Source: Aspergillus flavus (Eukaryota; Ascomycota; Eurotiomycetes; Eurotiales; Aspergillaceae). From it: a DNA stretch of 64,000 bases. The translations under genes and the position numbers were made by a program. Shown here one piece after another: positions 39,671 through 62,413 of this stretch; positions within the stretch are counted from its first letter, which is position 1, and each line of letters starts with the position of its first letter. The stretch covers positions 62,001 to 126,000 of the forward strand of contig NC_092407.1 of the NCBI RefSeq assembly GCF_009017415.1. The letters run 5' to 3'. The notes beneath the pieces are model-generated. The model had not been told where the DNA came from. It worked only from the letters and a program-made list of their open reading frames with translations, and did not search any database.

Positions 39671-40867
39671 ATGGGTCCATGGGACAAGCGTTTTCGTGAG
39701 GCACATGACTATGCCAGATGGCATGGATTTTTATCTGGCTGGCCAAACTTCGACGAGGCCAACTATGGTGACGGAGCCATCCAGGGGACCTTCTTGCTTC
39801 ATGAGGGCTTTGCTGACTGGCGTGATGTACCCCAATCTGAATATGGAGTTTTCCATATTGAGGACGTCCCAGGGATGATGCGGGCTGCCAATGATTACGC
39901 GGTAGGTAATGGCTATGAAGCGAGTATACCGAATTTCCACCAAGCCAATCACGGAAATGGTATCGTGTATGGCACCTTCCTGATCAAGCTTGGCAACACC
40001 GACTTTATTGATGTTCCTGCCGCAGAGTTAGGTGTCTGGGATAAGACCAATGTGCCCGCTATGATGAAAAGCAGCAAATGACTACGGCGTGTCGCACGGA
40101 TATGCGGCAGCCTTCCCGACCTTCCATGAGGCGAATTACGGCCAGGGCCTTGTGTTTGGCTTGAAACTCTTCCATCACGGCGCCACGGCTTGGCGCGATA
40201 TACCGGCCGATCTATTGCACAATTATTCAGACCACAGCAGCCCAATAGGTGTTGTACTGTGCCGGTCATCTGATGTCGCTATATGGACGGACATGCGCCA
40301 ACGCCGGACCGATATTTCGCCCGGGACGGATCTGATCCATCAAACCTATGCGCTTACTGGCGGGCGATATCTTGTGGGCAGTACGACCCCAACAGTACCG
40401 CCATCTCCAACTGGCTTGATATTGGGCACACGTAATCCGAGATCAGGACATATAAGGGCCAGCAACAGCGTTATAAACTCGCTGAGTGGGGCTCTCAAGC
40501 AGCAGCCCAGGCCGGCACCAAGCTGAGCGACTGCGGCCAGGTTATATTTGGCTACAATGTCAACAACGTGGATATCGACAAATTCGACCATGGTTCCGTG
40601 GGTGGGGGTAGAGTCGTTCCTGTCTACCTAGACACACGCCTTTTTGAACCCACCTTCTTCGCCCATGAGTTCGGCCATGCCCTTGGGCTCGTACACTCGT
40701 CGTCTCAACTCCGCGGGCCATACGGCGACCGATTTGATATCATGTCGGCCATGAATGCATGGTCATTCCCCGACAATCAAGGGAGAAGGGCAGGGCCTGG
40801 AGCTGCCGCAATTAACCTTGAGAATCTCGGCTGGCTCCATCGGTCCCGCATTTGGCGACATCAATGA
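39671..40867 (+). pseudogene. Metzincin-type metalloprotease with 62-residue repeats, broken
   Basis: The N-terminal part has three tandem repeats of 62 residues, each containing a PNF(H/D)(E/Q)AN(Y/H)G.G core followed by a DVP or DIP motif. The C-terminal part carries HEFGHALGLVH at 40664-40696, the full HExxHxxGxxH zinc site of metzincins, followed by a likely Met-turn in DIMSAM. No signal peptide is visible in front of the first repeat. The gene is broken: one extra A in a run of four (40067-40070) shifts the frame between repeats 2 and 3, a second shift near 40280 restores it, and a TAA at 40433-40435 interrupts the linker. The zinc domain itself is intact but would not be reached. I do not know a name for the repeat. 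Confidence 0.75.
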
Positions 40868-41743
40868 GTTCTTGGCAGCGCGCCTGACAGTAGGCCCTGT
40901 CTTCTACTTAGAGTTCCGGCAAAATAGTAGATAGGACAAAGGCCTTCCTGGACCCAGAATTCTCATCCATGCCCGCAATTCCGAGAAGAGCCCCGAGATT
41001 CTTGGAAGTGAACCGAAATCAGCTGGAGCATTGCGCGCTGGAGAGGAGCTGGAATTGCCCGGCGGATCACCTCCAGTAGTTGTTCGAGTAGAGGTGGATC
41101 GACTCCGAGGCCTCTAAAGCGACTATTCACGTCTGGGTTCTGCCAATGAGTGGATATCGGTCGGTCCATGTGTCCTCGTTCGTTCACGGCAAGCTATAAC
41201 GTAATTCACGGGTTCGTCAGCCATGCCCGTTAGTTAACTAAAAGTCCAGCGTCGTTAAACCTGGTGTCAGAAACGAGGAGACTAATCGCGGCTTAAACTT
41301 TTTAAAATAGTCTTCGTGTTGTAAATGGTCTTTTGGCTGTTGGATTAACTGTACCTCCTGGCATGCTTTCGGGCTACCTTTTGCTCCAGCTAGTATTACT
41401 AGCAAATTATGATTTCGGCCGTCCCAACTTGACTTAATTTAATAGCTTTGGTGTGAGACGGTGGACGTCCAAAAAGCCACATTGTATTTGACATACCGAA
41501 GTACCAGACTTGTTAGCGAATTACTTTGTAGCTTAGCGGTTTATCCAGTGCAACGTGGTCATAGGAATATAAGCAAGCCATTTAGCTTGGCAAGGATAAG
41601 GTTATAGAATGGGCCAGAACAACGTAGCACGTCATTATGCCCATTTACGTTGCCCTACACCACCCTTTAAAGCTGCACTCTGCTCGGATTGCACTGGAAG
41701 GTTACATAGCCTCTATTGAGTCAGATATATTCCCTCATATTCA
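40868..41743. other. Gene-free stretch
   Basis: No gene or repeat is recognised in these 0.9 kb. Confidence 0.45.
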
Positions 41744-43963
41744 ATGTCTTCTTCACATATCAGAAATCAATCTGAGTCACAGTCTACTCCACAACCTGGG
41801 CCTGACACTGACAGGGGAAACAGCCCCACGCCATCAGAGGGACATGGTCATTATGGCAGGCCGGTTGGACACACATCTGGTGCACGTGCACCCAAGGACA
41901 GAGACTTGTTGGAAACCTCCGAAGTCCTTCCCGTTTCCCTGCGCTATATTTTGGAACGTGGCCGTCCCCTCGTCTTTGACTGGGAATTGCCCGCCGTGGT
42001 GAAGTCCCAAGGAACCTCAGAATTTGACAACGAGGTTTTACTTTTGGCTAGTTACTTCGAAAGGAACTCGGAAGAGATGCTTGAACATGTTCAAGCGAAG
42101 ACTTTCGCAGAGTGTCTTGCCGAATACCTGGACCCCCCATCACAGAGCTTCATCAGGGCACTTATTGATGAGGTATCACGGGCCAGTGATCAAGAAACCG
42201 GTAAGTTTACCTACCGACCCAGATTCCGTATCTTTTCACGGGGAACTGTGTGCAGTATAGCTGAGGAAAGTTCACTAGTCCGAGGTTCGTATAGTCATGT
42301 CCTTAAGGAAAACGCTAGCACGTTGGCCTCAATCTCCTATTCGGACGGGGAGGTGGAGCTTCAATTTGGACACATTGACGACCTCGCCCAAGTGGTCCCC
42401 GAAGTGATAGGCATAATTAAAGCTCTCGAGTTGCTCTGCTCATTAATCCTTCTACCCGCCGACAACAATATGATCAACCTAATTTCTCAAAAGTTCGCAA
42501 TCGTTACAAGTTCACCCGTCAATCAAAAAGTCCATATGGAGATTAACCGCACTACTCGAACGCCACACACGAATCGCTGCTGCTGGAAACCTTTATTTAC
42601 TTCTTGCAACATCACATGCACGCGCTATTTTCAGCTACATGATTTTGGAACGGGTCTTGAAATCTCATTCGACCTTTTGATGTCACTTGCAGCTATTGAA
42701 TTTTCCGTTGTGATAGATGAAGGCATTGTTTTTGTCGGATATCAGACTGCAATCATCCCAACGAAAATGGGAGAAAACTGGGTCCAGTTTCACTTGTATA
42801 CGAACGATAACGGTCAAATCAACCCTTACCAGATCCAATTTGAACACCGACTCAGAACAGGGCATGGCACACCAAGCTTCCGAACTATGCGATGCTTTTT
42901 GGGCTGGTGTGAGGTTGCCCAGATCAACTTAGGGACTACAGATTTGCCAACCGGTGTTGGATACAGTACTGGCAGACCTAGACCCCGCTCAATTGAACTT
43001 GACGGCTTTTCTCCATTAGCCCAGGTTGGTGGAGGTGGTATCGCAACCGCAACTGTTGGCTTGCAAGTCAACTACAAGTTTACTTCCCATACAGTTCAGT
43101 TTAGCGTCGTTAGGGATTATGCTAGCCTCATCACCAATACTGCCCGGCAACTGGCCATTTTATATGACTCGTGGGAGAAGAGGTGCTGGCTGGTACCCAA
43201 GCTGAGCCTGCTGGTGCACATGAGCCGCGTCTACATCTCACAGGATGGGCTTCGTGCTGGAGGCCCAATTCCGGCAATTGATGGACATCAAGATAGTGAG
43301 GATATACTCCAGGTTGTTGCAGATCTTGGAGAAAAAATTATTTCATCCGCAGGTGGAGAGGATTTCACATTTCGGCAGCTGATGAAATATTTGAACCTTA
43401 ACTTGGTCGCCGCGCGCTATGCAACTAAGAACAGCGGGGGAGGTAGTCTGCATGGCTTTGAATTCATGGAAATTATTTTCCCACACGGAACGGCTTCAAA
43501 CATGAAGCAACTGAACCTGAATCACGCCGACACGTGGCTATCTATTGTTAACGGGGTTGACTCTATTATAATTGGCTCCAGAATGGGTAATGTCATCACG
43601 CCTCGCGGACCTGGACGACCTAATGCTATATGTAATGTGTTGCCCCAGGACCACGATTACCTTGCGGCCACCGTACCGTGCCTAAGACGGCTGGTATCGA
43701 GAACCGGGGGAGACCTGTTGGACCGTGCAACATCTGACGGAAGAATAAAGATCTCGCAAGGCTGCTATTGGTCCATCACTGGACAGCCATTTAGTCCTTG
43801 TGAGCACACAAACCACAATACTTGCTGGATGAGAGACGACCTATTTCAGTCGACTAGTGATAGCATTTTATCGCAATTCCAGGAGCTTGTCTTTAGGAAG
43901 CAGACCCCGGCACAGGCTATCCCTCCTTCCGGTGCTGTGGTTTTTGGGCGGCCAAATCGTTAG
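41744..43963 (+). CDS. Uncharacterised fungal protein, 739 residues
   Basis: A long intact single-exon frame whose function I do not recognise. Residues 1-50 are Ser/Pro/Gly-rich and probably disordered. The rest is mixed and without membrane segments or signal peptide. The C-terminal third contains LMKYLNLNLVAARYA, LHGFEFMEIIFPHG, DYLAATVPCLRRL and a Cys/His cluster CYWSITGQPFSPC..H..H..CW (about 690-715) that could bind zinc. Similar C-terminal blocks occur, from memory, in lineage-specific fungal proteins of unknown role, sometimes in accessory regions. It is unusual that such a long frame is intact next to a pseudogene-rich stretch, which suggests selection or recent arrival. Confidence 0.7.
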   Translation: MSSSHIRNQSESQSTPQPGPDTDRGNSPTPSEGHGHYGRPVGHTSGARAPKDRDLLETSEVLPVSLRYILERGRPLVFDWELPAVVKSQGTSEFDNEVLLLASYFERNSEEMLEHVQAKTFAECLAEYLDPPSQSFIRALIDEVSRASDQETGKFTYRPRFRIFSRGTVCSIAEESSLVRGSYSHVLKENASTLASISYSDGEVELQFGHIDDLAQVVPEVIGIIKALELLCSLILLPADNNMINLISQKFAIVTSSPVNQKVHMEINRTTRTPHTNRCCWKPLFTSCNITCTRYFQLHDFGTGLEISFDLLMSLAAIEFSVVIDEGIVFVGYQTAIIPTKMGENWVQFHLYTNDNGQINPYQIQFEHRLRTGHGTPSFRTMRCFLGWCEVAQINLGTTDLPTGVGYSTGRPRPRSIELDGFSPLAQVGGGGIATATVGLQVNYKFTSHTVQFSVVRDYASLITNTARQLAILYDSWEKRCWLVPKLSLLVHMSRVYISQDGLRAGGPIPAIDGHQDSEDILQVVADLGEKIISSAGGEDFTFRQLMKYLNLNLVAARYATKNSGGGSLHGFEFMEIIFPHGTASNMKQLNLNHADTWLSIVNGVDSIIIGSRMGNVITPRGPGRPNAICNVLPQDHDYLAATVPCLRRLVSRTGGDLLDRATSDGRIKISQGCYWSITGQPFSPCEHTNHNTCWMRDDLFQSTSDSILSQFQELVFRKQTPAQAIPPSGAVVFGRPNR

Positions 43964-44860: not shown

Positions 44861-45447
44861 ATACTCAACCGGGGCCATTACCCTACCCAACCCACCCATT
44901 TGCCAGTCAACCTGACATAGCTGCCTCTGGAATTAGCCAGCGCGAATCAAAATCCAATAGTTACAACACGCATAGCTCAGATAGTTAACATCAAGAACAA
45001 GGAAGGTCAGCATTAATACAGTCACTCTTGTCTGCAAACGGTGCCCGCCCAATAGATCAGTCGGGAGGCGAGGACATACATCACCTTTGCATAACTCCGG
45101 CGAAGTGCCATGGAATGCCTGGCACGTGTTATCAATGGCCTCGGTCGGAATGATCCAGAGCGATCTAGAGCACCAAGTTCAGAGACCACCTGCGGTACTT
45201 ATGATAACAGGGAGGAGTTATTACACATATAATCACTGAAAAGATAGTTGAGAACAGGTGTCGGATACTGGGCATGTGAGACGCTGGCTCCCGACAGCTG
45301 ATACTTTACACCAACACATGGGCTCTGAAGGCTATTAACCGCCCCATCCCCGGACTGTCTATGTAATTACGATAACTAAATATATTGCTGCAGTTGCTCC
45401 TTCTAATTCTTGCCGGCCACATCTCAGCTACCCTAGATCCCTTCGCC
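44861..45447. other. Gene-free stretch upstream of CYTH-like gene
   Basis: No gene is seen. In-frame non-ATG codons extend the following gene leftward to 45385 without an ATG. Confidence 0.45.
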
Positions 45448-46278
45448 ATGACCGCTGTCTTTGTCCCACCAGCACAGGTCAGTCCAAACATGGTGCCCGA
45501 CTACGAGGTCAGCCTGCTACTCGACCCGGACAAGGTCCTCACTGCTGCACACGAGTTAACAGACTCCATCCGATCGGCCTTTGATGTGAAACCGCACGTC
45601 ACCTTGGTAAATGTCCAGTTCCTCGACACGAATGATAAAGAGATTTATTCCTCTAGCTGGAGCGCTCGGATCCGCAAGTTCGAAAATCAGGATAAATTCG
45701 AGTTAACGTATAAGAGGCGGTATACTATCATCAACAGCAACGTTAATGCCGCTCTGAATGTGGCTAACGAAGATGGGTTCAATGCTGCCCACACAAACTA
45801 CGATGCACAGGTCGAATGGGATTTCCAGATGAAGACACTCTCTATCAGCCGCAAGAAAAAAGGACTGGATGCCGGGATTGGCAATACGAACCTGCCCGTG
45901 GAAAGTGACTCGCGTCAGATGCTAATAGACGAAGCGCCGGACAAGTTCGACAAATGGAAGCCTTACAAATCGCAGCCAAACAAATGGCATCCTAAACCCT
46001 GGGGCACCAGCGCCTTGAAAGAATCGCGCATTTTCGGTCCGGTCCGCATGAGTCGCTTCACAGGTTCGTGGAATGGGCTGAAGCTATACCTCGAGGTCTG
46101 GCCGCTACGGAACTCCACATATACAGGCATTGAATACTTTGTCGAGGCTTCTTTCAAGACAGACTCCGAAACAACCGCCTCGGTTGAGCAGAGCAACCTA
46201 GTAGCCTTCTTGAAGAGTAAGAATTGGTTACTTCAAAAGGGCTCGTCAATGACGAAGCTCATTATGGACCGTTATTGA
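45448..46278 (+). CDS. Uncharacterised CYTH-like fungal protein
   Basis: 276 residues from the first in-frame ATG (MTAVFVPPAQVS). The order YEVSLLLDP, WSARIRKFEN, FELTYKRRY and later WNGLKLYLEVWPLR resembles the charged beta-strands of CYTH/triphosphate-tunnel proteins, where alternating Lys, Arg and Glu line a tunnel that binds polyphosphates. Related fungal proteins exist from memory but are uncharacterised, so a triphosphatase or polyphosphate-binding role is only a suggestion. The classic N-terminal ExExK is not clear. No signal peptide, no introns, no damage. Confidence 0.6.
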   Translation: MTAVFVPPAQVSPNMVPDYEVSLLLDPDKVLTAAHELTDSIRSAFDVKPHVTLVNVQFLDTNDKEIYSSSWSARIRKFENQDKFELTYKRRYTIINSNVNAALNVANEDGFNAAHTNYDAQVEWDFQMKTLSISRKKKGLDAGIGNTNLPVESDSRQMLIDEAPDKFDKWKPYKSQPNKWHPKPWGTSALKESRIFGPVRMSRFTGSWNGLKLYLEVWPLRNSTYTGIEYFVEASFKTDSETTASVEQSNLVAFLKSKNWLLQKGSSMTKLIMDRY

Positions 46279-47089
46279 TGGGCAAAGTTAGTGAGCCCTT
46301 GGTTCTTTACCTGGCTTTCGCAACGAAGGGTTCTGAAAAGAGAGCATGGCCCAAGCCCAGTATGGTTAAATTGCTAACCAGACCGAACCGAGTTGGGTCT
46401 CTGGTGTCTGGGCTCTCCTTTTGCTATCGTGTATATTGCCCCAAAATTGCCGTTTTCTATTACTAAAGTCATGTGATGGCCTTTGAATATTTGTGCTACT
46501 CAGTAGGACGTAAGATAATAACTGATTATCCTGTAGAGCAAAACCGCCCTAACCGTGACGAAGTGGTTTGTTTTAATAGCTCCGAATTATATGCTCGGGA
46601 TCATCCAGACTTCGGACCAGTGACAGAATCTTCCTGAATTCCTCAAGCTAGTCTCTTTCAGGACCTGGTCGTGTAAAGAGCGTGTGCGAGGAAAATAGCC
46701 AACCGAGGCCAATCACGGATGCTTTAAATTAGCGAATGGCTCCATACAAATCAGCCTGCTAAATCTACATTTGTCCACCCCTTTCTCATGCTAGTCATCT
46801 ACTCTTTATTGGACTCTTCCGGGCTAGATCTCGGCATGACCCACGGGTGGGTTTGGGTCAGAAGGGCTGAGTGTTCCGGTGGCTTTTTTGAGCATCATGG
46901 TGGCTGAACCTTGCAGCAGGAATTGGGAAGGGATATGTATGTGGTATCCCGCCCCTGTAGAAAGTGACTTAAGTTAACCAACTCAAATGGCCCTATTCTC
47001 GCTTCAACAAGATCCGGAACCTCGGCCCTCATTTTGAGGGTCTCAGGGTGACCTCAGAGGGTCAACGGCGTGTCTCGCCGAGGGGTAGC
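46279..47089. other. Gene-free stretch
   Basis: No gene is recognised. The right part grades into the transposon-associated remnant. Confidence 0.45.
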
Positions 47090-47660
47090 CGGATGGCTCA
47101 CCCGCCCGGTTTCAGCAAGGTAGACCCTTGCAGGGCCACCAGAGTCTGGGCCATTTTCGACAGCCCTGAGAGATAGGCCGTTTAGCTATATGAAACGTCT
47201 GGTGCTGGAAGTCAATTCCTAAAACGGCAGGACACCCGACAAGTGTACATTCGAAAAAGTCTCCCTTCAGAATATAGTCGAGCAAGTCGATGGAAAACGC
47301 GAGGCAGGCTTGATCAGGCAGTTCCTTGGCCTGCTTCTGCTGATTGGCATGCTGCGAACTGTTTGAGCTGTCCTTGGTTCGGGAGAGTGACCATCTGCTG
47401 GCCATAGATCTCCATCTGATCGAGCACGGCGAACTTGGAGCTATTCAGCTGGTGGAGGGGCGAAATCGGCTGGTCGATCCGGCTGCTGCGGTAGGTGAAG
47501 CAGACTAGACGCTGCCAGACCTGGCAGTATTGACGGTAGGTCGCCGGCCGAAGATGGATCTAAATTAGGCCGTTCAAGATCCCCAACAGGCGGAAAGAGA
47601 TATCAATCTAGGGGTGGTTAAATTCATTAATACGGCCTTTTTTAATGGCGTCATAGATCT
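47090..47660 (-). pseudogene. Remnant of OrsD-like (DUF3505) transposon-associated gene
   Basis: Minus-strand fragments in changing frames (RPATYRQYCQVWQRLVCFTYR, then DQMEIYGQQMVTL, then ELPDQACLAFSIDLLDYIL) match a large fungal family annotated as OrsD/C2H2-type or DUF3505 proteins, often repeated in genomes and thought to ride on mobile DNA. Stops and frame changes between the pieces show it is a relic. The N-terminal zinc-finger part is absent. Confidence 0.55.
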
Positions 47661-47917
47661 AATCGATCGGGCCGGGGGTGGAAGAAAGGAATGAAGAGAA
47701 AAATTCCAGCTACGGCAATATTTCGGCACAGATTGTATGTCCAAGCTCAAGGAGCAACTCTATAACCTAGTTCCAATTCCTTTCTATCTTAATTCTCGAG
47801 CTCAGCAATGACTGCTAAGTACAAGACCACTGTTACCGCTATGGTCCACCGATCCTCAAGTCTCATTGGCACTATGACTCGCTCCCCTACATGGCCTTAC
47901 AATAGACACAGCAATAT

Positions 47918-49787
47918 TCATTCGCGCAGGTCAATCTGGTTCCCTGCAAAATACAGATATCTCCTCGCTCCCAGAACGCGAAGTTTCTTGCCGTATATGA
48001 GGAACAGAATGTTGCCAAGGAGTATGACGGTCAAGATCACACTGAATGTAATGTAAAAGCCCGTCAACCCGGAACTGGCGATCCACGGAGCCAGAGCAAA
48101 CACAAATACCGTGGAGATGAGGTTACGGATGAAGGTGACACCCACCAGAGAGCCCGCCACAATCTGTCCAAGTGAACCCGTGAGCGAAGCATAGAGACAT
48201 GATTGGATTGCAACTTACATCGGTGTAGGCATCAGTAAGATATGTTAGAGAGACGCTACTAGGCGGTGTTGAGCCAAAGGAGGCTAATCCGAGGCCTACA
48301 GCTGGAACAGGCCACGGAAGCCCCTTGTCTAAACCGATTCCAAACATGATCAGTCCAGCAGGTACAAAGGGAGTGAATGCCAAGGATAGCCAGAGGCGCA
48401 TCTCAGGCTCATAGATCCCATTATTTCTCCGCGCGAGAAGGACAATGAGTTTGTCACTCAAGGGCCCTGCGAGGAGAATCCCCAAGGATGTGCCTATAAA
48501 TGAGGGCAGACCCATCAGGCCAATCTGCGCGGCAGTGAAATTATATGGAGCAATGGTCATCCACGATGAAAGTGTTGTGACGGTAACAGTCACTGCGGCT
48601 GTCATGGCTCCATACACAACAGCCATGAATAATATGGCCGGAATTGTGAAAAGCATGACAAAGGGTTCGTAGCTATGGCGTGCGAAATTGGCCAGAGAGC
48701 TTGGTGAGATGGTCCACAGCGCAAGCCTCTGCAGATAGGTCTTCTTGCGAATAGAAGGGTCGATCCAGTTTCCTATTTCAGCCTCCACTTGAATCTTGCT
48801 GTCTGCCTGTGGATTTTCTTCATATTTCGTCACGTTTTCTTGATGTTCAAAGTCTCCCTTTCTGTTTGGAGTTTTTTCTGGTGACATGGAGGGAGGAACC
48901 CGCTCAATAGGGGTCGCAACGAACTTTGTTTCTTCATAGAGGAATAGAAAAGCGGCGAATCCAGCACCAAATAAAATCACCATCCACCACCAGACCCAAC
49001 GCCAGCCCTGAGAGTCCACGATGTACCCGCCGGCCAGTGGAGACAGGCTAGTCCCCACTGTCATAATCCAGACGTAGATACCATTCATCAATCCCCTCTG
49101 GTGGACGAAATAGATATCTGCTACAGTCATCTGAACCAGCACCTCTGCCAATGCCCCTACAACGCAGCTCAGGATGTTGACTAACATTAAGTCCGCGACG
49201 TTCATCATCCGTGCCGTCCATACGCTGATAGCACATTGGAACGCCGTACTGAAGACATATACCGGCCGTCGACCATATTTAAGGGCAAAGGGGATGATAA
49301 TCACGCTTCCGATGCAGAGCGCCCCACATCCTGCTGCGTAGCTGTCATTCAGGATCTCGAAGCTAAAGCCGAGCTCAGCGTTGACAGGACCCCAAGTAAC
49401 CGTTGCCACATCAATTCTGGGAGAGTTGTGAGACAGGATGAGACATATTGACCGGAGAGGATAGGACCTACAATGCAAAGACCATGATCACATAGTAGGA
49501 AACCAAGGAAAAATTGAGGTGCTTGCGCCATGGGGACCAATTCTGTTGTCTATCAGCAGGGTTTCCTTGCCCTCGCGGAAGCCCAAACGTACAAGCGGGT
49601 CGTTGGGGTCATGACTTGGTTTTGGTTGTAGAATAATGTTCGATCCCTGGTCAGACCCGAAAGCTCCTGTCATATGGAATATTTAGCATCAAGGCCATGA
49701 ATGGAAAGTACAGTACTCGTATATACCTTCAATGCGAACAGTCCCAGGTGGCCACGCTGGGTCAATACCCCTGCTTTCAGATGTCAT
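47918..49787 (-). CDS. MFS transporter, DHA1-like drug/metabolite efflux type (5 exons)
   Basis: Exons on the minus strand: 49787-49727, 49666-49593, 49542-49472, 49416-48219 and 48163-47918. Introns of 60, 50, 55 and 55 bp all have GT..AG ends and the joins keep frame, giving 549 residues. A hydrophilic N-terminus of about 60 residues leads to the typical DPNDPLNWSPWRKH segment. Twelve hydrophobic helices follow with the loop motif GRRP after helix 3 and a charged central loop (about 275-345). Members export toxins, polyamines or metabolites at the plasma membrane. It is codirectional with and 1.0 kb downstream of the peptide precursor gene, so it is the natural candidate for exporting the cluster product (inference). 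Intact. Confidence 0.85.
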
Positions 49788-50829
49788 TGTGAATGTTTTA
49801 ACTACTCCACCTGATGTTACAGTGAAGACCAGAGAGAGATAATCTTTTTTGGAGCCCTGCTCATGGTGCCCTCGGGGTCTTATACTATTAGTTTAGGAAA
49901 ACTCCGCGCACCGGCCTACACAACATTGCCGGCCAGGGCAAACCATGGCATTGTGTTCTTTACACCACCGTTTACCCTCTGAGCAGGGAGAAGCTATATG
50001 ATACGGCGATCACTAGAGTTCCCCATCATAAATGCGGGGGTGGAGCAGCGTCGGTAGAGCAGGAAGGGGTAGTTGGAGCGGCAGTCCAATAGCGTCAATT
50101 TCCGCGAGATATTGTCCGTGCTGAAGTCCCGTGCGGGGAAACCTTAGCCGATAAAAGCTTCACCGACAAGGTATATAGAGTCAATAGTCACGCGCAAGAT
50201 ACGTTAGTGGAGATGAAATCATATTCAGGCACACGCAGTGATACGAGTAAATGAACAATTGACTTATCAAAGACATAGCAGCAGTAGTCTTGATTGTTTG
50301 AGTGTTAGACCATGCTCTTTAAATTGCTCGCAACCGAAAAACTAAACTTACAGCCCTCGTATTAGTATAATCGGGTAGGTTTATGCCACCCATGGTGTGA
50401 GCAACCAACACTGGCAAGATTCTAGTTTCCCTGAGCTTCCATACCTAGCCAACCATATCATGGTGGCTGGCAATGGCACTTTCTTACCTTAAATGGTACG
50501 GCGCAATGCTGACGACAACAACCAATGACGGGAGGACAATCGCTTTGACTACATACTACGTTTGTGGTATGATCTGCCCGCCGAGGAGATGAGCTTGAGT
50601 TGCCATTGTTCGGTAGTTATATGACAGTCACGTAGTTAAACATTGCCGACAAATTCAGATTAGCCTAGGTTACCTGCTTGACAGTTTCACTATACTATGC
50701 TCGTTGCGCAGTATACCCGATATACATATATCTTGTCATCAGAAGTCACTCGCGATGAGAATAAACCGGTAGTCCGAAGCTCCATCACTCTTCCAGGCGC
50801 TGCATTAAAATAATCAAGTTTCGACATGG
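49788..50829. other. Gene-free stretch between transporter and precursor genes
   Basis: About 1 kb with no supported gene. It must contain the transporter promoter and the precursor 3' UTR. Confidence 0.5.
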
Positions 50830-51220
50830 TTAAGAACCATAGGACTCGATGGCATTGAAGATACGTGCGCCGTCGACACTGTCCTCGTTTCGGCGCTCTG
50901 ACGCATCGTCGACTTTGCGTTCTGATGGATTGCCATAAGAATGAATGATGAATAGATTTGCACCTTCCGGGGTGACCTCCTCCCTGCGGTGCAAGGCATC
51001 ATTAACCTTACCATCAGAGGGAGGAGAACTATAGGCGTTTATCTTAAATGAGTGTGCGCTTTCCGGGTTGACGTCGCGTTCAGCAGCGACCTGTTCTTAT
51101 TAATTGCTGCTTATATTTCACATTTCTGGTTATTGAAGTTGTCCATACCTTTAGAGCGGGGGCAGCAGAAGTCATCCCTACGCCCATCAGAAGCGAAACG
51201 AGGGGCAAGAAGGTCTTCAT
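50830..51220 (-). CDS. Candidate RiPP precursor: secreted Kex2-repeat peptide (2 exons)
   Basis: Exon 1 (51220-51149) and exon 2 (51090-50830) join over a 58-bp GT..CAG intron to 110 residues. Residues 1-19 are a clear signal peptide (MKTFLPLVSLLMGVGMTSA). Three similar units follow, at about 28-58, 59-89 and 90-110. Units 2 and 3 each begin with Arg-Arg (59-60, 90-91), a Kex2 site, with 31-residue spacing, and each unit ends in a short Tyr motif: INAYSS (41-46), HSYGN (74-78), ESYGS (106-110). The acidic spacers are alike (DGKVNDA, ERKVDDA). The stop directly follows the last Tyr motif. This is the architecture of UstA-like dikaritin precursors, whose Tyr-containing cores are cut out and cyclised by UstYa enzymes; two such genes lie next door. 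Which residues form the core is inference. Confidence 0.82.
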
Positions 51221-51320
51221 TTTCGCTCGGGTCTCCCTGGTTAAGTACTTATAATTGACTGAAAAGATTTGGTTTGCTCCACTTGCAATATGGGGCACCT
51301 CAGGGCCGCAACTCGGGGGA

Positions 51321-51329
51321 CTTATATAG
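51321..51329 (-). promoter_or_regulatory. TATA-like box of the precursor gene
   Basis: The minus strand reads CTATATAAG about 100 bp upstream of the precursor ATG, in the 433-bp region shared with the divergent UstYa-like gene. Confidence 0.5.
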
Positions 51330-51653
51330 CATTGAGAACAGCGTTGAATGTTCGAGCGGCTTATACTATTACGAATTTCTGGCCATTAGGTCGGATGCAA
51401 ATGATCACCGAGCCCCGGACGCATACTGCAGTAACGTTACATTCGACCATGCCAGGGTATCTGATCCTTTGCCAATGCCAGAAGTATGAGTATCCTGGTG
51501 TGTTATTTGGTATTCTTGTTTGACCACAGAAAGCTCAGCTGTAGAAGATTCCCTCTAGTCTCAGGTTTCTCTTCTCCCAGACCACGAGCGTTTCCCGTTC
51601 TCCATCATTTTATCTCGGGAATACTGCTTTTTCTGTGCCCAGGAACAACAGTC

Positions 51654-52694
51654 ATGGCACCTCCAACATCAGCTGAACGCACCTCGGAGGATAGCTCTAG
51701 TCCTACCCAACCATTCCTCGAACAGCGGATTCCTTTCAGGGAAGAATTCCTGAGGCCGCCGAGAAGCAGCCTCAGCTGGTTCATCCACATTTTGGCCTTC
51801 TGTGTCTCTCTGACGCTCGGCCTGGTTGCACTTACAATGAAGCCAAGCGCCCTACAATGTACCCATCAACTGTCACCATATTGTATGCTCACACATCACA
51901 CTTACCCTGCCCACTATACTCCCAAATAACACAGTCTAACGCAGCCTCAGCTCCTCTAATTGAAGAAGGGCTTATCAAGTATGAATCCAAAAATTTCGAC
52001 AACGAATTCGACAAACCTTCGAACTATCGGGGACAGCCCAGCAAGCTTACCGAAGCGTCGTGGAAAGCGCTCTGGGAAAGTAAGCAACACCGCTCCTCCA
52101 CATAGACGCGACACTAAGCCAATTAGCTCCTGCAATCGGAGTACCAAGAGAAAAGTTAGAGGTGCTCAATAAGTCCGGTCCGACAAGTTTGAACTGGTTT
52201 CACGCGCCTCCCAGTCCTGATCATGGGGCCAGGGATGAACTCGCTGCCTTGGTTGAGGTCTTCCACCAGTTGCACTGCATAGTAGGTCCACCTCTTGTCA
52301 TTTACAGGTGAAATCAATTGATGATCTAATAATAGATAGAATACGCTCCGTTTGGAAGTCCATAAGGACAGCTACCATGACCATTTTGGTGAATGGCCAG
52401 ATGGAAGTGGCCCTGGGAATGAGGCAATCAAAAAGACCCATATAGGTACTTCTACCATCATTGGCACATTCGAGCACCATCCGGCGTCGAATACTAACCC
52501 AATACCCAGATCACTGCATTGAACTCCTGCGCATTACCCTTATGTGCACCTCGGATGTGACACCTTTACTGTTTATAGATGACCCACATGCCTTTCAAGG
52601 ACGAACTCCTGATTTCAATACTATGCACTCGTGTCGAAACTTTTGGGAGATCCGTGAATGGGTTGAGAAAATGGGTCTGCCTCCATTGTCCTGA
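51654..52694 (+). CDS. UstYa/DUF3328-family oxidase 1 (5 exons)
   Basis: Exons 51654-51882, 51945-52079, 52127-52281, 52340-52445 and 52510-52694 join exactly in frame (introns 62, 47, 58, 64 bp) to 269 residues. A cytosolic tail is followed by one transmembrane helix (about 42-62), then the conserved NYRGQPSKLTEASW block. Both family motifs are present: HQLHC at 168-172 and HIDHC at 207-211, the HxxHC pair thought to bind the catalytic metal. UstYa proteins carry out oxidative cyclisation of peptide side chains in ustiloxin, asperipin and related pathways, in the secretory membrane system. It is divergent from the candidate precursor, 433 bp apart, so the two likely share control. The third intron and the acceptor at 51944 were chosen because alternatives create stops. 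Confidence 0.9.
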
Positions 52695-53542
52695 TCTTCG
52701 TCACGCTACCTTTCTCCACTACGAGTAGATTGTCACAATCTTCGAAGTCGTCACAGGTTACCACTGCAATGCTACCAACAAGTCTATTGGAAGTCCACAT
52801 GTTCACGTAAGCGCTAGGATGAATCTCAAGTAACTATGGAATCCTGCGTGAGGGGCCTAAGCCGCCAAGAAACGGCATCCGCCGGGGCATCTACTATTAC
52901 GGGCACTGTAATATCCTCAGATCCCCTCCACTGTCAGTCCCATGCCTTGTTGTGGATCTAAATTCCTGTGCCAGGGAACATGGTCCGGGAACATGATCCC
53001 TCGTTGAATTCAGAATGTCGACGAATGACTAGACAAGGTCGTTCAAGCTCGAAAACAGCCTCTATCTACCTATCAAGTAAGAAGCTGGGCTTCGTGGTGC
53101 CAAGGCCGCTGCCCACAAGGAGAATGTAACCACACTTAACAGGACATGATAGTGCTCCGATGCCTTCTCACCCACTCTGTTCTATATGGATTCACTTTGG
53201 CCTCGTATTTATTGGGCCTCAGTATGGATCTCATACAAGGGTTCTTGGTTATTCCGTTCAATGCTACGCTGTTATGTGACTTAACATCGAGATATTAAAG
53301 AACAGGTTTGAGTGAAGGATCGGGACGTACATCCCGGCAACTTATCCAGGCAGTTACACGGTCAGATAATTCAGATTGGGTGCTAAATGATGATATCTAT
53401 CCCCGTGCGGCACAGGAAGCAGGCTGTCTTATGATAGCTCCTGCTGATGCCGTCTGCATTGAGCCGTAAGCTTCCCCGTTGCATTTCTTGGTGATTTTCA
53501 AAGTACCTCTCTAAGGTTGCCGAAAGCTCATCGTGCAGTCCG
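52695..53542. other. Gene-free stretch between the two UstYa-like genes
   Basis: No gene was identified in 0.85 kb. It presumably holds the first gene's terminator and the second gene's promoter. Confidence 0.45.
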
Positions 53543-54559
53543 ATGATAATGAAACGCCTCTTACACGATATTCGACACAAAGAGGGTATGTCTCCCCAGA
53601 GGCACCTATACACCCATGTGGGCTCGAATGGATTGTCTACCTCCCCTCCCTCCTTTGTGGCCCGCACAGTCCCCTGGTTCCTCCAACTGGCTTTCTTCTT
53701 CACTGCATTTGGCTTCCTCGCCTTCAGGTATCAGACAGTCGCTACAGACCAGGTGTGCACATCCCGACTTTCCTCCTACTGTGCGTAAGTCGGACGTATA
53801 GACACTTTGAAGAGTGGCTGAATTCAGAATAGCACCCGTTATAGATGCAGGGATCATCCGATATACATCCTACAACATAGCGGGTGACTTTGAACAACCG
53901 TCCATCTATCGGGGGCGACCTACCAACCAGACAGAGACCGCATGGAATAAACTGTTCATGGGTAGGACGAGCACTTGCTCAGACACTGTATGTTACAATC
54001 ACGAGATCGAAGCTAAAGCTCCTCAGCACCGGGCATCAACATCCCAGAGACGAAGCTGCCCTTGCTCAATAAATCGTCGACTGCGAGCTGGCTCCGAACC
54101 CCGAAGAAAAATGGGGATGGTTACGTAGGGTATCTGGAGGTGTTTCACCAGCTGCACTGCTTGGTTAGTCAAATATCCTGCCGCTCCTTGGAGACGATTA
54201 ATTGACCAGAGACATATAGCACATGGTCCGGCTAAAGATTTATGAGAAGGCGTACGAGGAAGAATTTGGGTATCCAGCGTCCCAATTTGAGTCACAAGGT
54301 ACCGCCGTTACAGCCACACATATAGGTGAGTAGCCGTGTATCCTATATAAAAATGTCAATGATTTTGAACGCCTGCGCAGATCATTGTCTCGAGACGCTC
54401 CGGTTGAACGTGATGTGCACAGCTGATGTTACTCCGGTGATGATTGTGGCAGATGATACAGCGCCTCTGGGTCGCTATGTTGATTTCAACACCATGCACA
54501 AATGTCGCAATTTCTGGGACATTCGGGCATGGGTTGACCAGAACAAAGTCATAGATTGA
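53543..54559 (+). CDS. UstYa/DUF3328-family oxidase 2 (5 exons)
   Basis: Exons 53543-53780, 53833-53961, 54027-54163, 54220-54325 and 54381-54559 (introns 52, 65, 56, 55 bp) join to 262 residues. The exon phases are the same as in the upstream paralogue, showing common descent. One transmembrane helix lies at about 43-61. The IYRGRPTNQTETAW block and both metal motifs, HQLHC (163-167) and HIDHC (202-206), are intact, and the C-terminal DFNTMHKCRNFWDI matches the paralogue. A pair of distinct UstYa homologues is common in dikaritin clusters, where each may form a different bond. It lies codirectional and 850 bp downstream of the first. The start ATG was chosen to keep the pre-helix tail; a later Met in the tail is possible. 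Confidence 0.9.
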
Positions 54560-58659: not shown

Positions 58660-61245
58660 GTCGTATCCAGTCCTTGCTGTTGAGCTCATCGATGAGCAGA
58701 GCCTTGGCCAGAAATTTGTGTCCATAATGTGCTGTCCAGGGTAGTTATAATTGGTATGCTGGCTGTGCCACTGTATATTACACGACTCTCCACTATACTT
58801 GTTTTTTTATTCAAAGCTACGATTGGTACGAAATTGAAGTGATGCCTCTATAGTATAATTCGAAGGACCCCCCGTTTCATGTCAAGTGTAACCCCATTGC
58901 CGAGTGCCTATACAGCATCTGGATCGTCAAATGAATACCGTTTGGGGTGTTTCCCGAAGGATATCTGGGGAGCAAATCTCTTTCTACTACATTACGCCAA
59001 CGAGCTAGTTATTCTGGAATGTCCGTACTCTGGAACGATCCTTACGCAGGATTGGATCCACCACTCTCGCTTCGCACGCAAGCCCCACGACACGATTCAG
59101 CTCATACCAAAAGTGGACATGTCTGCAACGGCCGGTTGACAGTGGAAATGTACCTAATGCAATATTTGATTTCACCGTATCTTTCTATCCTCTTCCATTG
59201 CCGTAGTCGGGAAGTACTGGGTGGCCGATCTTAAATTCGACGAAGATTGTGTCGTGGCTAACAAGGTCATGAGAAATGGCAACTTCCTCCTCCTAATTAT
59301 ATCCCACGTGCCATCCGGATGGCTGTTTACAATAAGTCATTTATAATAGCCAAAGATACCACGCAATGCCTACCTAGGGGGCAGCATGAATCGGAAAGTG
59401 GTGGCTCCGCGTACCTTGTATGGGGGGATCCCGATCGAGAGAAGACGGCAAACCCTAATATACCCACCGGGTTTCCACCGGGAAATCGGGCCACCCGATC
59501 CAGCTGGAGTTGTCACCCGTCGTCGAGCCGGAGGAGCTTCGCCTCTCCGATTGCTATACTAGCTGCCTGCTAGTGTGTTTCCCGCCCTCTCTCGCCACTC
59601 CTGGCTCAAACACAACCCGCCTCAATTGGTTTAGCTCTTTTCCCTGCTGGCTTCAGACCTTTGGCTTGTCATCGATGTTTATTGATACATATTATATGAA
59701 CTCTCGAACTAACCCTCACGATGGAAGAAAAGTGCGCCAGAAAGCCCGAGACGCAGTCGATTAGCCAGTAATGACATTAGCCGTGTGAGAGCATTAAAGG
59801 CAAGTCTGTGTCTGAATGTACAGGATACACATTCTCCCCAAACATCCATGCCAGGTAGCGATTCAAACAAAGGTTCGAGCACTAAGACCTGGAAGATACC
59901 GTCATGAATCCCAATTCGGAATTGAGCCTGATATGAGGTAGATCCGCGGCATAGGGATTAGGAACATCATTTCAAACGCACAAAAATCTCATCTCGTAGC
60001 TAACTTTATATCAGGCCGTTGCTATCCTAGAGAGACCTTCGTCCAATTGAAGAGAGCTTACTGCGGGTACAAGTATGCTGTGAACTTCCACAACACTCAC
60101 AGTATCTATGGGAGTTCCAATCCCGGGTGAATATGTGACAGCTACTCCGAGACAGAATCCAGTCAGAATTGCTCACCCACAACGACACTGGAGACAATGA
60201 TAAACCTTTAAGTAGACATCGGCTGTTCCTGGCGGATGGCATGCGATTGAGGAGCGCGGAGTCCGGCTGTTTTCGTATTAACGTGTCACATCCTATCAGT
60301 ATCTTCGAAAAAAGGCTACGGAGGGTGCTAGAAGTTACTAAGTTCTCCAAATAATGATACGTAAAGTAATCCTATAGAGCTATTGCTATACGTGTAGATA
60401 AACGTATAGTATTGATTCTAGGTCTGGATATCGGTCGATGAAAGATGACTCCGACCTGCATCGCACATCCGAGTTGATCAGTACCTTGCGAGCATTCAGC
60501 CCAACCGAAATGTAGACGGCGGATCCACTGGCGAGAGCATACTGTGGCATTATAAGTCCTGTGTATTTATTTGTAGACTATGCTTCCTTTGGGAGAATAA
60601 CTAGACTTCCTGGGCCGGGTAAGAAACGCAGCCTAGTGTGCGGATAGTAACCGCAATATTACGGGATGGTTGTTGGGGGTGTCATACGTATGGGTCACAG
60701 CCTCAATTCAAGGTAGGATACCATATCGGAATGACTATCATTCCCTTGCTGCTGAATTGCACGAGTCATCTACGTAAAAACGAGCCGAAAGTAATGCAAT
60801 GACGTCTAGCCTAAATCTGTATGGTATGCGGAACTAGGTCTCTTTCCCGGAATAGTACTGTAAAGATTATAATAGCCCCTTTATCCTTTAGCTGGTGTCA
60901 ATGATCCATGTACGCTCATGACCCCTAGTAGTTGCTTCATATAAACACTACTAAAATGGTTCAAGTTTCAATGCGCGAGTACGGATACGGGTACGACGGG
61001 TTATGGCGATCGCTCGGTTTTCATCACTGATACTTTATCCCTGATATCCTTGTTTTCAGCTTTTCCGCAAATTAAACCAGTTTTGGATCATGAATCCCGC
61101 ATTTTCTGTGGCTATGCCCCTGATAATAGACGTTATAAAGGGGTCCGATGCGTCGCTTGGAGAGTGTAGTGCTTCTATCACAGTTAGCCAACGATCCTTA
61201 CAAAGCATACAACCTCATTCTTTACACCTTCCAGTTCACTAAGCC
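58660..61245. other. Long gene-free stretch
   Basis: In 2.6 kb only short open frames without recognisable similarity occur. A TATAAAG at 61134-61140 sits about 110 bp before the following AttH-like gene and is a plausible TATA box. No repeats or RNA genes are recognised. Confidence 0.45.
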
Positions 61246-62413
61246 ATGTGGGTCCTCAAAGCAGCAATCGTCTCCGGGCTTCTTCTGCCTCCAACACTGG
61301 CTAATCGCCTATATCTTCCTCCGGTCTATCACAATGGCAGTGTCGAGGTTGAGAACTTTTCTGTTCCCGGCAACCTTGACGGATTTAAGATGAAAACGCC
61401 GGCGAACTCAACTTCCTTTGATTTTTGGTACTTTGATGCCTTTTCTAGGAATACCAGCGCGGCCATCAACATCGTCTTCTTCAACACGGGTGACTTTGCT
61501 GCGAACCCGCACCCCTTGACTGTCCAAATCTCCGGAACCTTCGACAACGGTACCCAATTCTCCGGAGAGGCCCTGGCGTCTGAAGGTGCTTTTATCACCA
61601 ATGACGAGAGCGGAATTACTGGAAACTGGCTCGGCTCGGGCGCCAGCTTCTACGGTACCAACCTCGAGAAGCCCAACGTCGAGTACGTGGTTAAACTCAA
61701 CTCACCTAGCATCGGCGTGAGGGGCACGTTTAAGCTGAAATCCGTGAGTGACTCCCTGTCCAATTCAATCATCAGCTCAACAGCTAACCTATCCACACCC
61801 GCAGCGCGCACCACCCCACTATCCCTGCAACCCCAATGTCGATGGTCTAAACACCCTCCTTTTGCCACATCTCCATTGGTCAAATGCTGTTCCCGATGCC
61901 CAGGCTAATATCGATCTCACCATCAATGGTACCGAATTCAAAGTGACTGACGGTGTTGGGTACCACGACAAGAACTGGGGTGACGCGTCTGTCATCACCA
62001 GTCCCAAATACTGGGACTGGGGACACGCAAGCCTAGGCCCCTACTCGCTGGTCTGGTACGACCTCTTGGACTACAATAATACCGAGCATGTCTACGCCTA
62101 TATCTCCAAGAATGGCAACCTCATGCACAATAATTGTGCCGAAAAGGCTGTTGAAGTGCGCCAGTGGGGTGCGAATGCCACATACCCGCCCACTAGTGGT
62201 ATTGCCACCAATGAGGGTTTGACTGCTCGGTTTGACCTAGGTGGTGGTCAGGCTTTTGTCGCGAACCTGACCAAGGAGGTAATAATTCACGATCAGATTG
62301 TTTATGCTAGGGCGTTGGGCTCTGTCACTGGTGGGATTGAGGGACAGGAGCAATATCAGGGTCGTGGGGCCTACGAAGAGTATGTGTATGGGTTGTTGTA
62401 CGGCAAATCTTGA
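61246..62413 (+). CDS. Secreted AttH/CrtC-like lipocalin-fold protein (2 exons)
   Basis: Exons 61246-61743 and 61805-62413, with a 61-bp intron, join to 368 residues. A signal peptide is present (MWVLKAAIVSGLLLPPTLA), and many NGT, NST, NTS and NGS sequons suit secretion. The motif GYHDKNWGD and the following WDWGHASLGPYSLVWYDLLD are typical of AttH/hydroxyneurosporene-synthase-like proteins (two lipocalin-like barrels). In fungi this fold includes pericyclases that guide Diels-Alder reactions in metabolite clusters, as well as many uncharacterised members. No synthase gene is near it in this window, so its substrate is open. The intron is supported by the stop-free join between KLKS and RAPPHYPCNPNVDG. 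Confidence 0.78.

Follow-up and report, generated by a model that had tools for sequence, protein, structure and literature searches.

Gene content of the locus

We asked whether the locus at 47918-54559 of a 64,000-nucleotide stretch of the Aspergillus flavus genome (the window, C3:62001-126000) encodes a dikaritin pathway, that is, one to ribosomally synthesised and post-translationally modified peptides (RiPPs) that is built on a Kex2-type precursor and UstYa oxidases. We answer with good confidence that it is a small dikaritin-type RiPP cluster, known here from its genes. A major facilitator superfamily (MFS) transporter gene and a precursor gene lie on the minus strand and are followed by two oxidase genes, UstYa1 and UstYa2, on the plus strand. 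All four gene models, which are splice models built from the sequence, are open and complete, and with the Pfam matches they confirm the content that a sequence-only reading had given to this locus.

The precursor gene (50830..51220, minus strand) has two exons (51220-51149 and 51090-50830) around an intron (51148-51091) and encodes 110 amino acids (aa) without any Pfam family match. UstYa1 (51654..52694, plus strand, 267 aa, exons 51654-51882, 51951-52079, 52127-52281, 52340-52445 and 52510-52694) and UstYa2 (53543..54559, plus strand, 262 aa, exons 53543-53780, 53833-53961, 54027-54163, 54220-54325 and 54381-54559) sit 0.4 and 2.3 kb from it. Both match PF11807 (UstYa/DUF3328) above the Pfam cut-off, with E values of 1.1e-45 and 5.4e-44 that belong to first-draft models two and three residues longer than the final ones; the first introns were revised by orthologue alignment, with a new acceptor in UstYa1 and an orthologue-like form in UstYa2. 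Each enzyme carries the HxxHC motif twice (HQLHC at residue 166 and HIDHC at residue 205 in UstYa1; HQLHC at residue 163 and HIDHC at residue 202 in UstYa2), so that the claim of two intact UstYa genes holds. The putative exporter (47918..49787, minus strand, 549 aa, exons 49787-49727, 49666-49593, 49542-49472, 49416-48219 and 48163-47918) matches PF07690 (MFS_1) with an E value of 9.7e-26.

The precursor and its cores

Is the precursor built as expected of a Kex2-processed protein? Its N-terminus is hydrophobic, and residues 1-19 (51164..51220; this and the following features are on the minus strand) form a probable signal peptide, judged from hydropathy and conservation rather than by a dedicated predictor; Ala-Ala-Pro at residues 19-21 is invariant among its relatives. 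Two Arg-Arg pairs of the Kex2 type, at residues 59-60 (50983..50988) and 90-91 (50890..50895), divide the mature precursor into three fragments (41, 31 and 19 residues) that contain one Phe...Tyr core apiece. Core 1 is FKINAY (residues 39-44, 51031..51048), core 2 FIIHSY (residues 71-76, 50935..50952) and core 3 FNAIESY (residues 102-108, 50839..50859), which is followed by a Gly-Ser tail and the stop codon (50830-50838). The tyrosine motifs reported earlier can thus be sharpened to two Phe-x4-Tyr cores and one Phe-x5-Tyr core.

The claim of three repeats was also right, although the repeats have diverged, because no shuffled sequence matched the alignments of fragments 1 and 2 (15/31 columns identical, 0/1000 shuffles as good), of fragments 2 and 3 (8/18 columns, 0/1000) and of all three jointly (0/2000); fragments 1 and 3 on their own align no better than chance (480/1000). 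The third repeat is partial, and the dibasic sites of the precursor are the two Arg-Arg pairs and one Arg-Lys. These repeats are far less regular than those of a precursor of the asperipin-2a type: with our own rough approximation of the published repeat score (PMC7329392, Umemura 2020; not the original code), a score above 0.6 was reached by 0 of 91 residues here, by 6 of 110 in the A. alliaceus relative and by 102 of 144 in an asperipin-type control.

Conservation of the precursor and of its neighbourhood

To what extent are these features shared by other species? A protein search over 5.8 billion sequences gave 13 candidates, which reduced to eight precursor clusters at 47-95% identity, all from Aspergillus species that we take to belong to section Flavi (A. 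bombycis, A. tamarii, A. pseudotamarii, A. pseudonomiae, A. arachidicola, A. minisclerotigenes, A. caelatus and A. alliaceus). No relative was found in the viral contigs searched. In the nine-row alignment of the A. flavus precursor with these relatives, the Phe and Tyr of each of the three cores are invariant (9/9). Core 2 is identical throughout, residue 40 in core 1 is K or N, and core 3 keeps F, N and Y and is otherwise FNAIESY-like. Pairwise identity averages 0.909 in the cores versus 0.678 over the remainder of the mature protein, and in the stretch from core 2 to Arg-Arg it is just 0.578.

The Arg-Arg punctuation stood in part: both sites are present in A. flavus, and the first is kept in eight of the nine precursors, but the Arg-Arg between cores 2 and 3 has been lost in three. 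In A. alliaceus the first KR or RR comes only after core 2. There the middle unit, core 2 included, occurs twice, and each copy has an Asn-Glu-Lys-Arg end; this duplication with KR ends is the growth expected of a Kex2-repeat precursor.

We also asked whether the oxidase gene accompanies the precursor gene elsewhere, taking locus tags as a proxy for adjacency. The precursor and the UstYa1 orthologue carry consecutive tags in four of the eight precursor clusters: A. bombycis (ABOM_000053/54), A. tamarii (BDV40DRAFT_297451/2), A. pseudotamarii (BDV38DRAFT_281418/7) and A. pseudonomiae (BDV32DRAFT_150353/4). In the first three of these species the two entries are on equally long listed contigs. 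The UstYa1 listing shows one member per 90% cluster, and for A. arachidicola, A. minisclerotigenes, A. caelatus and the A. alliaceus strain found there was no UstYa1 tag match among the matches listed, which leaves these four untested rather than negative. Homologues lacking UstYa neighbours would have spoken against the proposed class; of the eight clusters, the four open to view all have a UstYa1 neighbour. Consecutive tags also join UstYa2 to UstYa1 in A. bertholletiae, A. hancockii and A. alliaceus, and the precursor search returned no sequence from the first two of these. Taken together, UstYa beside the precursor and a Tyr invariant in every core of nine precursors are dikaritin features, and the neighbours in 4/8 clusters support the assignment to the class with a Kex2-type precursor and UstYa oxidases.

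The UstYa enzymes

The UstYa1 protein, which shares 98% identity with one from A. flavus AF70, and the UstYa2 protein each have a single hydrophobic stretch near the N-terminus in addition to the double HxxHC. Both motifs are found in 15 of 17 aligned UstYa proteins; the two exceptions are gene models from A. hancockii, with HQLRC in one and an intron-like insertion inside the second motif in the other. The predicted fold of the A. tamarii UstYa1 orthologue, modelled from a 44-row alignment, has a helix at residues 38-61, with one motif on a helix at 163-178 and the other on a helix at 199-220. Among PDB sequences, a profile search found a single row, at chance level (E 0.61). In a conserved-block tree of 19 UstYa gene fragments of this genome and the 17 aligned proteins, the two oxidases form clades of their own (support 0.986 and 0.846), although many rows are partial and the tree is weak; two short pieces, one at C1:1579k and the second plus-strand piece at C5:112501-122400, were left out.

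A guide to the chemistry is CctR, the DUF3328 copper hydroxylase of cyclochlorotine. According to the accessible part of PMC12435403, its double HxxHC holds two copper ions where the subunits of a dimer meet, in the lumen of an organelle, and the enzyme requires oxygen and a reductant. The proteins described here resemble it in family, in the double HxxHC, in one transmembrane helix and, in the model, in a helix for each motif, whereas CctR hydroxylates a non-ribosomal peptide.

Comparison with known dikaritin clusters

Which known pathway does the cluster resemble? Asperipin-2a is made by four genes, for a precursor, one UstYa, a transporter and an isoflavone-reductase-like protein (aprA, aprY, aprT and aprR), as set out in the accessible text of PMC6514808. 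Like the present cluster, that one is small, has no tyrosinase and combines a secreted repeat precursor with a UstYa oxidase and a transporter, and its core FYYTGY has the same Phe-x4-Tyr spacing as two of the cores here (PMC6514808). We located the asperipin locus of this genome on C7, where the core occurs in 11 copies in a 57-base tandem array (two single matches lie elsewhere) and an NmrA match (C7:848049), an MFS frame, a UstYa match and the array fall within about 6.5 kb. The two also differ: 11 identical cores there versus three unlike cores here, and one UstYa gene versus two. Neither UstYa1 nor UstYa2 groups with the UstYa gene of the asperipin locus in the weak tree, and the cluster MFS protein gave no tblastn match at 1e-3 in 9.9 kb of that locus. 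As to an aprR-like reductase, NmrA has 83 matches in the genome (all genome-wide searches covered 37.7 Mb in eight contigs), of which none is in C3:62001-126000 and the nearest on C3 is at 315 kb. A kinship of the two precursors, suggested by a shared 'TPE' and the Phe-x4-Tyr spacing, was rejected since shuffled sequences match it. Judged from its genes, therefore, the cluster is nearest in content to that of asperipin-2a, but with an unrelated precursor, a second UstYa gene and no NmrA reductase.

The ustiloxin B cluster likewise has two UstYa genes and a core within a longer Kex2 fragment (accessible text of PMC6514808). Its cores are different, and in this genome the UstYa genes of the ustiloxin type have matches to tyrosinase and to S41 peptidase at their locus or no more than about 12 kb off. 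The searches found these controls, with tyrosinase matches at C5:4114712 and C5:4115334, some 7-12 kb from those UstYa genes, and an S41 match at C5:4105852, inside the ustiloxin-type locus. The 15 tyrosinase matches of the genome include none in the window (the nearest on C3, at C3:1135458, is about 1 Mb off), and none of the four S41 matches is on C3. The sequence-only reading of a small cluster that lacks both is thus borne out. Phomopsin and epichloecyclin are also dikaritins with Kex2-type precursors and UstYa homologues (PMC10512285), but phomopsin needs a tyrosinase and its clusters hold S41 peptidases (PMC7329392, PMC6514808; for these three sources, in the parts accessible), and the cores differ. 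The asperipin-2a and ustiloxin-type loci of this genome both lie outside the present cluster, which fits none of the named subtypes (asperipin-2a, ustiloxin/phomopsin types).

A proposed pathway and its alternatives

How could the four genes act together? From its N-terminus, the precursor would enter the endoplasmic reticulum, and the house Kex2 protease may cut after the Arg-Arg pairs seen in the sequence to give fragments of about 41, 31 and 19 residues; the genome has one Kex2-type gene (P_proprotein), on C1. By analogy with CctR, UstYa1 and UstYa2 would each span the membrane once and have a dicopper centre, HxxHC(x)nHxxHC, on the lumenal side; they would abstract a hydrogen from the core and link the phenol of Tyr to a carbon of a side chain close by. 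Peptidases encoded elsewhere would trim the fragment flanks, and the MFS protein would export the product. In its most specific form the proposal has one short precursor yield three different cross-linked peptides, each closed from the Phe beta-carbon to the Tyr five or six residues on, with UstYa1 and UstYa2 either forming a mixed dicopper dimer or dividing the cores between them. We put this forward tentatively, as a fairly unlikely refinement; if true, it would amount to a combinatorial mini-pathway of a sort overlooked by mining for repeats.

Several observations weigh against a dikaritin cluster. No core is directly flanked by a dibasic site, so extra trimming is needed. The second Arg-Arg is absent in A. 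pseudotamarii, A. caelatus and A. tamarii (3/9); A. pseudotamarii and A. tamarii retain an Arg-Lys, and A. caelatus is without any dibasic pair from core 2 to core 3. The ten residues before core 2 are conserved too (0.867), and when the core mask is shifted circularly, 6 of the 90 placements (counting the unshifted one) reach the contrast observed. This contrast is a modest test, since conservation extends to the residues directly ahead of the cores; those residues could be a recognition sequence. When an asperipin-type unit was aligned with fragments 1, 2 and 3, 1554, 518 and 1600 of 2000 shuffles were as good. The UstYa1-type fold model is of moderate confidence (mean pLDDT, the predicted local distance difference test, 75.9) and has no match among PDB structures at E ≤ 0.001.

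What else could such a locus be? A RiPP cluster in which the two enzymes hydroxylate, desaturate or chlorinate the released peptides, with no cross-linking, would agree with the hydroxylation, halogenation and macrocyclisation reported for DUF3328 proteins (PMC12435403) and with desaturation in phomopsin (PMC10512285, both in their accessible parts); we think it unlikely. The precursor might instead be that of a secreted signal or hormone-like peptide, processed by Kex2 to linear pieces that are themselves active, while the adjacent UstYa genes serve another substrate. Only 1758 of 7878 Kex2-repeat proteins (22%) have a UstYa among their 15 nearest genes, as far as the accessible text of PMC7329392 goes, and the Kex2 sites are imperfect here, but the precursor and UstYa1 adjoin in 4/8 precursor clusters and the Phe and Tyr of every core are invariant in 9/9, which makes this quite improbable. 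Diverged repeats (15/31 identical at best), a precursor outside any Pfam family and the lack of a dibasic site at the same place in all nine precursors would suit an ordinary small secreted or cell-wall protein with incidental repeats. Core conservation, the UstYa neighbours and the A. alliaceus unit duplication with KR ends all speak against such a protein, and we give it very little credence.

Flanking DNA and other UstYa loci

Beyond the cluster there is a methyltransferase frame about 10.5 kb to the left, and a Sde182-type hydrolase and a sugar transporter to the right. About 7 kb to the left, at 40436-40867, a frame with an HExxH-type motif matches metallopeptidases weakly, in no case reaching the Pfam cut-offs. 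We leave the hydrolase, sugar transporter, methyltransferase and metalloprotease-like frames outside the cluster because nothing links them to it. Two further open frames on the left (41720-43963 and 45385-46278; 747 and 297 aa) have no Pfam match, and 46750-47850, considered as a transposon, was rejected, with just two short genome matches besides itself (65 and 32 bases). At 61243-62413 lies a Diels-Alderase-like gene with DA_N and AsqO_C domains, and to its right a zinc-cluster regulator and an ArAE_2/BRE4-type transporter. The four frames of ≥150 aa scanned there include no core synthase.

The cluster transporter has a paralogue at C8:666002-667503 (67-69% identical), and the 9.9 kb around it (C8:662001-671900) contains no UstYa match; a precursor tblastn match near it (E 0.014, 41 residues, 29%) was taken for chance. 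Apart from the loci of the asperipin-2a and ustiloxin types, the genome has five more UstYa loci that show repeat frames, dibasic sites and Tyr-containing units (C3:40500-45500, C7:806500-812500, C6:3508500-3514500, C5:112501-122400 and C1:808500-813000). Their unit types are EAIPFY, EAIPYY, KEKYDVYD, YGAWGG and YGNYG. The C5 locus has about six UstYa match groups, with a tyrosinase match at C5:128 kb.

Novelty and significance

Is the cluster new? FIIHSY, IIHSYG, KINAYS and NAIESYG occur in no open-access full text searched, a scope outside which lie the tables of Nagano 2016 and Umemura 2020, which may list the precursor; the cores are also absent from the accessible parts of PMC5845213, PMC8703953 and PMC11061970. 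By the count of a 2022 review, five dikaritins have been reported (PMC10512285), while a survey found a UstYa neighbour for 1758 Kex2-repeat proteins (PMC7329392) and earlier work gave 94 candidate clusters in Aspergilli (PMC6514808), again by the accessible text of each; one more such locus is therefore to be expected. The cluster is real and conserved, with probably undescribed chemistry in a pathway of a kind already known. As the repeats are weak here by our rough score, the precursor suggests that others like it can escape surveys that depend on strong tandem repeats. The locus, a four-gene system with two UstYa enzymes and no tyrosinase, has relatives of its precursor in eight other Aspergillus species and natural variants of the cores. 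It is well suited to asking what each UstYa contributes, and whether Phe/Tyr macrocycles also arise by the copper mechanism shown for CctR.

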